Shown in pieces: positions 5,733 to 10,107 of a stretch of DNA of 43,599 nt. Made by a program: the position numbers and the translations under genes. This DNA is from a bacterium HR35 (GTDB taxonomy: Bacteria; Patescibacteriota; Minisyncoccia; UBA6257; HR35). Within the stretch, counting starts at the first letter, position 1. Each line of letters opens with the position of its first letter. A model generated the notes under the pieces. It did not search any database. It saw nothing but the letters and a program-made list of their open reading frames with translations, and was not told the DNA's origin. Where the stretch lies: NCBI GenBank assembly GCA_002898235.1, contig BEIL01000005.1, positions 1-43,599 on the forward strand, written 5' to 3'.

Positions 5733-5761
5733 TTGACATAAACAGTGTTTTACTATAAAAT
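5733..5761 (+). promoter_or_regulatory. Sigma70-like promoter TTGACA-N17-TAAAAT upstream of the secreted-protein cluster
   Basis: Exact -35 at 5733-5738, 5/6 -10 at 5756-5761, 17-nt spacer. Confidence 0.7.
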
Positions 5762-5824: not shown

Positions 5825-6592
5825 ATGAAAAAATTTTTTTTAATTGTTTTTCTATTCTTAACTCTTTTAATTTTTAATTTTGTTCTTGCAGGTTACCAAC
5901 CTCCTTTTGGTGGAGAATATACTAATCTTTGCGGAAGTGGTTTAAATGCAAATTTTTATAGTTGTCCAGCTAGCTGTAATATAAATGAAGGTTGGTGTGA
6001 AACAAGAAATAATAGTGAATGGATTTATGTTTTTATTTGCGGAGGAAAAGTAAGTGAATGTCGCTCAGGTATGATGGGACCATTTCAGGGCAGACAATTT
6101 TTGACTTCTTTCGCTTCGGTTGGCTCGGATAAAACTGTTCAAATTGATGTCTTTGATAAGATTTGTAATACAAATAGCGGTTGGGTATGCGATTCATCAA
6201 ATTTGTTGGGTTATATTGTTTGGTGGTCAGGTTCTGGCGGAGGTGGTGGAGGTCAAGTTCAATGTAATGAAAATGAAGTTCAACTTTCAGTTTCTCCTAA
6301 TCCGGCTAATATTAACAATTTTATAACTTTCTCTGTTGTTGCCGGTGATGCTTCTACTTGGTGGCGAAATGAATTTTCTGGTGGAGTCAGTAATTGTTCA
6401 GAAATCAATTATGGTTGGAGTACCCGTTGTCAAGCTGTTTCTTCAGGTACTTTTACTTGGACAAGAATTTGGAGACATTGCGTTGGAAATATTAATAACT
6501 GTTCTCAAGAATGTCGTAAATCAATTACTTTTACAATTAGGGGCTTTCGTGTGCCAGTAGTCATTACTTTACCACCGGTCGTTACTTATTAA
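5825..6592 (+). CDS. Secreted Cys-rich protein with PKD/Ig-like C-terminal region and terminal RVPVVITLPPVVTY motif
   Basis: Signal peptide MKKFFLIVFLFLTLLIFNFVLAG; Gly-rich linker GSGGGGGG; SVSPNPANINNFITFSVVAG resembles a PKD-domain start. Confidence 0.8.
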   Translation: MKKFFLIVFLFLTLLIFNFVLAGYQPPFGGEYTNLCGSGLNANFYSCPASCNINEGWCETRNNSEWIYVFICGGKVSECRSGMMGPFQGRQFLTSFASVGSDKTVQIDVFDKICNTNSGWVCDSSNLLGYIVWWSGSGGGGGGQVQCNENEVQLSVSPNPANINNFITFSVVAGDASTWWRNEFSGGVSNCSEINYGWSTRCQAVSSGTFTWTRIWRHCVGNINNCSQECRKSITFTIRGFRVPVVITLPPVVTY

Positions 6593-6602
6593 ATAAATAA
6601 CC

Positions 6603-7277
6603 ATGAAAAAACTTTTTTTTCTCTTTTCAGTTGTTAGTTTAGTCTTTTTAGGTCAATATATTTTTTCAAAAAAACAAGCTGTTGCTCAAATGTCTTGCCC
6701 TTCTCAAACAACCTATGGTGATACTTGGGCCACTTTAGTGGGTGAAATTCAAGACAATGGTGGTGATCCTAATATTACTGCTTGGTTTGAATGGGGAACT
6801 TCAAGTTTTTCTTTATCTAATAGAACTCCAGATCAAGCTCTTTATGTTCCTAATCCACCTCAAAGATTTTGTACTACTATATCCGGTCTTCAACCTTGCA
6901 CTACTTACTATTATCGAGCAGCCTCTCGAAATAGTGGCGGAACAAATTACGGAGCTATTTATTCTTTTAGAACAACTTGTAATTTAAATCTTCAAGTTTC
7001 TTGTTATGCTTCTCCTAATCCCGCTAATATAGGTCAAACTGTTGTTTTTACAGCTAATGTTAGTGGTGGAACTGGCTCTTATTCTTATTCTTGGTCAGGA
7101 GCTTGCAGTGGTTTTTCTTCAACTTGCTCTCGTTCTTTTTCTTCAGCTGGAACATATACAGCTACAGTTACTGTTACTTCTGGCAATCAAACTCAATCAG
7201 CTTCTTGTTCGGTAACAATTAATCAACCAGTAAGACCACCGGTTGTTATTACTTTACCTCCGGTCACAACTTTATAA
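6603..7277 (+). CDS. Secreted FN3-like + PKD-like domain protein ending in RPPVVITLPPVTTL
   Basis: Signal peptide; TWATLVGEIQDNGG...AWFEWGTS...TTYYYRAASRNSGG (FN3-like) then SYSWSGACSG...SAGTYTATVTVTSG (PKD-like). Confidence 0.85.
   Translation: MKKLFFLFSVVSLVFLGQYIFSKKQAVAQMSCPSQTTYGDTWATLVGEIQDNGGDPNITAWFEWGTSSFSLSNRTPDQALYVPNPPQRFCTTISGLQPCTTYYYRAASRNSGGTNYGAIYSFRTTCNLNLQVSCYASPNPANIGQTVVFTANVSGGTGSYSYSWSGACSGFSSTCSRSFSSAGTYTATVTVTSGNQTQSASCSVTINQPVRPPVVITLPPVTTL
6693..7215 (+). repeat. Long direct repeat copy 1 (523 bp)
   Basis: Aligns to 7833-8355 at constant offset 1140; by eye only two mismatches (6740, 7211). Confidence 0.95.
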
Positions 7278-7289
7278 AAAATTTAAAAG

Positions 7290-7703
7290 ATGAAAAAACT
7301 CTGGTTATTAATTTTAACTATTTTGCTTTTAACTAATTTTAGCTTTGCTGCTACTTGTCCTTCTAAGACTGTTCCGAGTTATCGCTTTATAACTTTTGTT
7401 GGTAAATTAGAAGGACTTGGAGGCGATAAAGAAGTAAAGGTTTGGTTTGAATATGGTACAGACAAAGATAAGTTAGATAAAAAAACAAAAGAATTAATTT
7501 TAAATGAACCTCAAATCTTTTGTTTAAGAGAAAAAGGTGTTAATCCTTGCACTACTTACTATTATCGAGCAGCTGCTCAAAACGCTGCCGGAGTAAATTA
7601 TGGTGAAATAAAAGAAATCAAAACTTTATGTAGAGGAAGTTTAAATCCGATAAATCTGATTAAGGAAAATTTTAAAAAATCTGCAAAGTGGATAATTTTT
7701 TAG
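7290..7703 (+). CDS. Secreted single FN3-like domain protein, paralogue of flanking genes
   Basis: Signal peptide MKKLWLLILTILLLTNFSFA; VWFEYGTDKDKL...VNPCTTYYYRAAAQNAAGVNYGEI parallels the neighbours. Confidence 0.8.
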   Translation: MKKLWLLILTILLLTNFSFAATCPSKTVPSYRFITFVGKLEGLGGDKEVKVWFEYGTDKDKLDKKTKELILNEPQIFCLREKGVNPCTTYYYRAAAQNAAGVNYGEIKEIKTLCRGSLNPINLIKENFKKSAKWIIF

Positions 7704-7707
7704 GTTC

Positions 7708-7736
7708 TTGACAAAACACTTTAGATTTTTTATAAT
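7708..7736 (+). promoter_or_regulatory. Perfect consensus promoter TTGACA-N17-TATAAT
   Basis: TTGACA 7708-7713, 17-nt spacer, TATAAT 7731-7736; ATG follows at 7743. Confidence 0.85.
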
Positions 7737-7742
7737 TAAAAT

Positions 7743-9191
7743 ATGAAAATTAAATTTTTTAATCAAAAAATGTTTAAGAAAATTTTATTACTTTTACCAT
7801 TTGTTTTAGCGATAGCTAATGTCTCTGCCCAATCTTGCCCTTCTCAAACAACCTATGGTGATACTTGGGCCACTTTAGTTGGTGAAATTCAAGACAATGG
7901 TGGTGATCCTAATATTACTGCTTGGTTTGAATGGGGAACTTCAAGTTTTTCTTTATCTAATAGAACTCCAGATCAAGCTCTTTATGTTCCTAATCCACCT
8001 CAAAGATTTTGTACTACTATATCCGGTCTTCAACCTTGCACTACTTACTATTATCGAGCAGCCTCTCGAAATAGTGGCGGAACAAATTACGGAGCTATTT
8101 ATTCTTTTAGAACAACTTGTAATTTAAATCTTCAAGTTTCTTGTTATGCTTCTCCTAATCCCGCTAATATAGGTCAAACTGTTGTTTTTACAGCTAATGT
8201 TAGTGGTGGAACTGGCTCTTATTCTTATTCTTGGTCAGGAGCTTGCAGTGGTTTTTCTTCAACTTGCTCTCGTTCTTTTTCTTCAGCTGGAACATATACA
8301 GCTACAGTTACTGTTACTTCTGGCAATCAAACTCAATCAGCTTCTTGTTCAGTAAATGTTTCTTCTGGTCCATCTTTCCCTTTGACCATTAATCCTTTCC
8401 AAATCAACCAACCACCTGTTCCTATTATTGCTTTTACACCTGAAGAAATAAGACCAGGTACAATTGTTACTTTTGACGCTTCCAATTCTTATGATCCTGA
8501 TGGAACTATTATAGCTTATGAATGGAGAATTAATAATGAAATTGCTTCTTATAATCGACAATTTTCTCGAGCTTTAGCTTCTGGAATTTATCGAATTAAG
8601 CTTACGGTTACTGATAATCAAGGAGCTTCTAATTCCAAAGAAATCTTAATTTCAGTAGGTAGAACTGTTTTTCTTACAAGAACTCAAACTGTTGTTCGTA
8701 ATGTTCCTCTGATTACTCAAGTTACTAGCCAAGCAAAACTAATTGATTTACTTTTAGATGCTTCCTATCCTGTTTTTGCTTGTCAAAAAAACGAAATCCA
8801 AATAACATTGGTTAATAACACTAACGTCAATCGAAGAGTAACTCTAAGACCAGTAGGAGAAATAGCTAGCTGGTTTAATCCTCAATCTAAAACTTTAATC
8901 TTAAAACCAAGATCAACTAATTTAATAAAATGGGAAGTTAATCCTCCATGCAACATAAAAGCCGGAAATTATGATTTTAACCTCCAAGTAGAAACTCCTG
9001 GTGGTTTTTATAATTTTTCCTCTTTTTTTGAAGTAAAAGAAAAAACAAATTTCCTTTCACCTCTTTTAGGTTTTATAGGAGGAATTTTGTTTAATTGGTG
9101 GTTACTCCTTCTTTTTCTCTTAATCCTTCTTTTGAACGCTTATCTTTGGTATCGAAATCTTAAAAAACAAGAACAAACTAGCCAAGCTTGA
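7743..9191 (+). CDS. Membrane-anchored surface protein: signal peptide, FN3-like, two PKD domains, Ig-like region, C-terminal TM
   Basis: FN3/PKD part nearly identical to the 6603 gene; second PKD (FDASNSYDPDGTIIAYEWRIN...TVTDNQGASNSKE); C-terminal TM LLGFIGGILFNWWLLLLFLLILLLNAYLWY plus basic tail. The start may be ATG 7743 or ATG 7770. Confidence 0.88.
   Translation: MKIKFFNQKMFKKILLLLPFVLAIANVSAQSCPSQTTYGDTWATLVGEIQDNGGDPNITAWFEWGTSSFSLSNRTPDQALYVPNPPQRFCTTISGLQPCTTYYYRAASRNSGGTNYGAIYSFRTTCNLNLQVSCYASPNPANIGQTVVFTANVSGGTGSYSYSWSGACSGFSSTCSRSFSSAGTYTATVTVTSGNQTQSASCSVNVSSGPSFPLTINPFQINQPPVPIIAFTPEEIRPGTIVTFDASNSYDPDGTIIAYEWRINNEIASYNRQFSRALASGIYRIKLTVTDNQGASNSKEILISVGRTVFLTRTQTVVRNVPLITQVTSQAKLIDLLLDASYPVFACQKNEIQITLVNNTNVNRRVTLRPVGEIASWFNPQSKTLILKPRSTNLIKWEVNPPCNIKAGNYDFNLQVETPGGFYNFSSFFEVKEKTNFLSPLLGFIGGILFNWWLLLLFLLILLLNAYLWYRNLKKQEQTSQA
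7833..8355 (+). repeat. Long direct repeat copy 2 (523 bp)
   Basis: See copy 1. Confidence 0.95.
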
Positions 9192-9576: not shown

Positions 9577-10107
9577 ATGAAAAAATATATTCTCTTTCTA
9601 GTCCTAATTTCTCTTTTTATTACTTCTATTTCCTTAGTAAAAGCTCAAACATCAACTTCCACATCAACTTCAACTCCCACATCAACTTCAACTTCCACAT
9701 CAACCCCTACTTCGACTCCAACATCTACATCCACCTCAACATTTCCAACTTTTAAAGCTTGCGTAGGAAGTAAAATTAAAGAATTAGCCAAGGAAAGAAA
9801 TGAAAGAAGAAAGAACCTTTTTGAAGAATATAGAACTAAAATTAAAAATGCAACCTCAACTGAAGTCAAGAAAGAAATTAGAAAAGAACTAAATTCTAAA
9901 TTAAGAGAACTTAATAAATGGTATGCTAGCGAAGTTAAAAAAATAAATTCTCAATGTAAGGAATTTAGAAAAGAAGCGGTTGAAAAAATGAAGACAGAAA
10001 AAAAGCAAATTAAAGAGGAAGTAAAGAAAAAGAAACAAGAACTTAAAAAAATAAGAAAATCAGCCACTTCTACTACTTCAACTTCATCTACTTCAACCAA
10101 TCAATAA
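9577..10107 (+). CDS. Secreted protein with Ser/Thr/Pro low-complexity linker and charged coiled-coil
   Basis: Signal peptide MKKYILFLVLISLFITSISLVKAQ; (TS)n/TP repeats; Lys/Glu-rich helical region; second TS tail. Confidence 0.75.
   Translation: MKKYILFLVLISLFITSISLVKAQTSTSTSTSTPTSTSTSTSTPTSTPTSTSTSTFPTFKACVGSKIKELAKERNERRKNLFEEYRTKIKNATSTEVKKEIRKELNSKLRELNKWYASEVKKINSQCKEFRKEAVEKMKTEKKQIKEEVKKKKQELKKIRKSATSTTSTSSTSTNQ

Follow-up and report, generated by a model that had tools for sequence, protein, structure and literature searches.

The window analysed here, a stretch of 43,599 nucleotides that makes up contig C5 of a 595,782-base, five-contig genome (G000, reported 100% complete), carries two same-strand genes, A and C, which share a nearly identical 523-bp tract. 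This tract is predicted to encode a two-domain module (FN3-like plus PKD) common to a secreted protein, A, and a membrane-anchored protein, C. We consider it very probable that the module has been homogenised by repeated gene conversion within the genome, presumably in a RecA-assisted, non-crossover manner, between paralogues that are otherwise ancient and functionally distinct. For comparison we used 17 genomes of the family, most of them metagenome-assembled, with one assembly per species and with the relatives named as Parcubacteria/Patescibacteria. Among these, G001 is a genus-mate of G000, and G002 (KatS3mg096) represents a sister genus and was sequenced independently. The locus consists of a tRNA-His followed by four genes on the same strand, with the following features.

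5733..5761, + strand: promoter-like site before Z, TTGACA-17-TAAAAT, 11/12 (consensus match only), just 3' of the tRNA-His
5825..6592, + strand: gene Z, 255 aa, predicted secreted, C-terminal ...VVITLPPVVTY; orthologues in G001, G002 and G008
6603..7277, + strand: gene A, 224 aa, with signal peptide, FN3-like domain, PKD domain and tail VITLPPVTTL
6693..7215, + strand: shared tract, gene A copy, FN3-like/PAP-N plus PKD, 521/523 identical to 7833-8355
7290..7703, + strand: gene B, 137 aa, with signal peptide, one FN3-like domain and tail WIIF
7545..7573, + strand: 29-bp run in B that also occurs, without mismatch, in A and C of this genome, a possible small conversion patch
7708..7736, + strand: promoter-like site between B and C, TTGACA-17-TATAAT, 12/12 (consensus match only)
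7743..9191, + strand: gene C, 482 aa, with signal peptide, FN3-like domain, PKD domain, second PKD domain, a further beta-sandwich and a C-terminal membrane helix
7833..8355, + strand: shared tract, gene C copy, from repeat comparison and domain profiles

The two copies of the tract are as the first-pass annotation had described them: 523 bp each with two differences, offset by 1140 bp, each beginning at codon phase 0 of its own gene, and flanked by unrelated sequence, with identity dropping to background immediately beyond both edges. The differing sites lie 47 and 518 bases into the tract and are both synonymous (6740 G/7880 T, Val GTG/GTT; 7211 G/8351 A, Ser TCG/TCA). A search of the genome with one copy returned the other at 935 bits (E 1e-273), which excludes chance as the source of the repeat, and no further repeat of such size and identity was found within the window. 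Profile searches matched the tract to PF00801 (E 2.5e-7) and, just under the cut-off, to PF16656 (E 1.3e-6). The FN3-like domain of A and C resembles the PAP N-terminal domain, likewise under the Pfam cut-off, and NCBIfam gave no family name above cut-off. Gene B is a distant paralogue of the first, FN3-like half of the module (42% amino acid identity over C residues 11-131), and no C-terminal membrane segment is visible in the sequence of A. The AlphaFold2 model of C has a mean pLDDT of 72, and a fold search with it found nothing more specific than chains of Ig-like domains (TM-score <=0.20 over the query), with no single relative; the prediction for Z, at a pLDDT of 51, is too low for use.

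Several smaller features of the locus and its surroundings were also observed. Genes Z (6563-6592) and A (7248-7277) end in a conserved tail, ITLP[PA]VxT[LY]-stop, whose DNA pattern matches just the Z and A ends in six family genomes and nothing in the other 144 genomes searched; it is possibly a family-specific sorting or assembly tail. The end of B is similarly conserved as W-[IVF]-[IV]-F (7692-7703 in the window, and in G001, G002, G008 and G014). The promoter-like site at 5733..5761 presumably serves Z, A and B, and similar 11/12 sites precede Z or A in G001, G002, G008, G011 and G014. The site before C is present in G001 (12/12) and G002 (11/12) and absent from the more distant G008, G011 and G014. 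Beyond C, low-complexity ACTTCCACATCA-type repeats at 9636-9749 encode a Thr/Ser/Pro-rich stretch near the start of the gene at 9577-10107, whose C-terminal part is conserved in G001, where it adjoins C. At 781-864 a 42-bp unit occurs in tandem with 90% identity.

Gene C was found in 8 of the 17 family genomes. The order A-B-C is kept in G000, G002, G008, G011 and G014, with Z preceding A in G002 and G008, and this conservation across relatives indicates that the gene order is old and that A, B and C are old paralogues. The genus-mate G001 carries Z-B-C without A; its tail agrees with that of G000 Z at 27/36 and of G000 A at 28/36 positions, a near-equal likeness, and A may have been lost there through recombination of those two tails. 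The contigs of G015 and G016 (L033 and L034) end within the PKD region of C, and A and B are missing, as would be expected from short-read assembly were the A and C modules near-identical there too.

Against this old gene order, the module itself follows the genome rather than the gene. In G002, A and C likewise share near-identical tracts, with the same outer edges as in G000 (in agreement to a few bases) and a different sequence. Within the module, A is close to a perfect match to C of the same genome and about 80-85% identical to the other genome, and the synonymous divergence between A and C is 0.02 within G000 and 0.13 within G002, compared to 0.57 (A-A) and 0.58 (C-C) between the genomes. 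The tract is thus bounded, and inside it paralogues of one genome are more alike than orthologues across genomes. Runs of identical variable sites between A and C, 330 in G000 and 150 in G002, were reached in none of 10,000 permutations; the corresponding run in G014 is 7 (permutation p 0.27). Module trees pair A with C by genome (supports 97/98 and 90/94), and the AU test rejects uniting the two A genes (p 1.5e-14) or the two C genes (p 5.3e-9).

The ends of gene A show the opposite pattern. Its signal peptide has a dN of 0.21 between the A genes of the two genomes versus 0.97 between A and C, and the A genes of G000 and G002 agree at 45/60 and 40/48 bases at the front and at 45/51 and 28/36 at the end. 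Both the signal peptide and the tail of A are therefore closer to their counterparts in the other genome than to C, while the signal peptide of C is too diverged to tell. A single recent duplication in G000 would make A new there; since its ends are shared with G002, and the divergence of A, B and C as paralogues is old, we rejected this reading. Of the 'very recent duplication/gene conversion' that had been proposed from the sequence, the conversion half is thus supported, with the module alone homogenised, separately in G000 and G002, and the simple duplication half falls. For Z and B, too, G000 is closer to G002 than to its genus-mate G001. Part of what G000 and G002 have in common may therefore stem from lateral transfer of the entire cluster, which would leave the identity of A and C inside each genome unexplained.

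Shorter traces of exchange occur elsewhere in the cluster. The 29-bp run in B is longer than any between-genome run of B to A or C (20) among the 30 longest runs listed, and in G011 genes B and C, otherwise diverged, have an exact match of about 68 bp in common (L030:6321-6401 and 6701-6781). Paralogue runs are longer within genomes than between them (Mann-Whitney p 0.003), a value that serves as a rough guide as the pairs are not independent.

Direct repeats of 523 bp, 1140 bp apart and in frame, are a good substrate for unequal crossing over as well, and repeat-mediated duplication and deletion are well established in bacteria. Cycles in which the A-B unit is duplicated and then deleted would also homogenise the copies. 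Neither the amplified nor the deleted state is seen, however, in the five relatives whose locus lies on a single contig (G001, G002, G008, G011 and G014). In G002, moreover, an unconverted island of 85 columns (alignment columns 389-473) lies between two converted, identical tracts; this is the patchwork that conversion predicts, and unequal crossing over would need more steps to produce it. We consider the crossover route distinctly unlikely. The same geometry (same strand, in frame, 1140 bp or 380 codons) would permit the programmed switch between secreted and anchored forms that the first-pass annotation had suggested, in which a deletion between the repeats joins the signal peptide of A to the tail of C, with loss of B and of the promoter-like site of C. 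Such a deletion is one-way on a single chromosome and would make a poor switch; B and the division between A and C are conserved across genera, and among the genes of the locus, to which this look was confined, none resembles a recombinase. The relatives offered the switch no support, B and C being separate genes in all five, with neither a fusion of the A signal to the C tail nor a tandem amplification in any of them, and we hold it to be very unlikely.

With a source assembly in five contigs, misassembly is also conceivable: one copy could be a spurious duplicate of the other, or a consensus built from several similar copies. But relatives have orthologues of the outer contexts of both copies in the same order, two sites distinguish the copies, and in the independently sequenced G002 the same parts of A and C are shared, with another sequence. 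The repeat is probably no assembly artefact, and this explanation appears extremely unlikely.

Gene conversion between A and C is read here from the history that single assemblies record. The identity of the copies, the edges of the tract, its in-frame placement and concerted evolution in two genera are observed; the non-crossover mechanism, the parts played by RecA and MutS, the direction of transfer and any advantage in keeping the modules alike are inferred. On this reading the FN3-PKD module would be copied again and again from one gene to the other by homologous recombination without crossing over, within a chromosome or between sister chromosomes and probably dependent on RecA. The copied tract would begin just past the signal-peptide region and end at the last PKD codons, because the likeness of A and C ends there, and hence each gene would retain its own signal peptide and tail. 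With only two synonymous changes between the copies, the last event in G000 was recent. Single residues hint at transfer from A to C for the module front and from C to A for the island in G000, the island tree being weakly supported. RecA is present in the genome. MutS_V was found in none of the 17 family genomes, several of which are incomplete, but in 11 of 14 control genomes. In other bacteria MutS is established as a curb on recombination of diverged sequences, and its absence would ease exchange between A and C. Loss of MutS has been reported for Saccharibacteria, another group of Patescibacteria (PMC8406219).

A second case lies on contig C1 of the same genome, in a 2003-aa gene (L006:3821-9832) with an internal in-frame repeat of 529 bp (5 differences, spacing 1119).

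L006:6184-6712 and 7303-7831, contig C1 of the same genome: 529-bp pair in the 2003-aa gene

Its module combines a PKD with another domain; these are just two other PKD copies of the module type in the genome, and their DNA is 78% identical to the PKD of the window. Two near-identical pairs thus account for four of the genome's five PF00801 matches. Most of the 2003-aa gene is without a relative in the family, where it has no full-length relative, so duplication and conversion are indistinguishable there. In another genome (G058, L061:2753-4335), a 1210-aa protein contains five FN3-like copies in tandem; copies two places apart are 91-95% alike and adjacent ones about 75%, as if two-domain units had been copied.

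Comparable exchanges are known from other bacteria. In Mycoplasma genitalium, a single expressed gene, mgpC, is supplied from silent partial donor copies, while in our locus both partners look intact, each with its own signal peptide. Silent-cassette antigenic variation of the pilE/pilS type likewise does not describe A and C: each is complete, from its start and signal peptide to its stop codon, and the genome's other two PKD copies of this type lie within the 2003-aa gene. For the adhesin gene mgpC (MG192), recombination of surface-gene segments has been described in this small-genome bacterium (PMC2169797). In Brucella, the nearby porin genes omp2a and omp2b are 82-100% identical and varied by gene conversion (PMC7050475); these, however, are oppositely oriented and alike over almost their entire length, whereas A and C lie on the same strand and share one module. 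A close parallel is offered by homA/homB and babA/babB of Helicobacter pylori, paralogous surface genes in which one segment follows the genome and the other the gene. For homA/homB, one segment clusters by strain and the other by gene, which was read as concerted evolution through gene conversion (PMC2795765). We draw the Helicobacter parallel for a genome in which RecA is present and MutS-type repair was not found. In contrast to homA/homB, homogenisation in our locus affects a two-domain module on the N-terminal side and leaves the tails different; A and C are neighbours within one cluster, and the bacterium belongs to the Parcubacteria. On this comparison we regard the process as a known one, with the homA/homB signature, in a new place. 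No description of surface-gene conversion in Parcubacteria/Patescibacteria was found in the open-access literature, which is weak evidence of novelty.

One practical consequence concerns short-read assembly, which near-identical modules in these genomes can interrupt or blur. As to function, selection might keep the secreted and anchored binding modules matched through continual conversion in these MutS-less, episymbiotic bacteria, with A and C acting as partners or sharing one ligand-binding specificity that is refreshed as the host surface changes; we offer this tentatively and think it rather unlikely. Should selection indeed be what keeps A and C alike, the FN3-PKD module becomes a good candidate for the region in contact with a partner cell. 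More broadly, our comparison suggests that gene conversion shapes the surface proteins of Parcubacteria.
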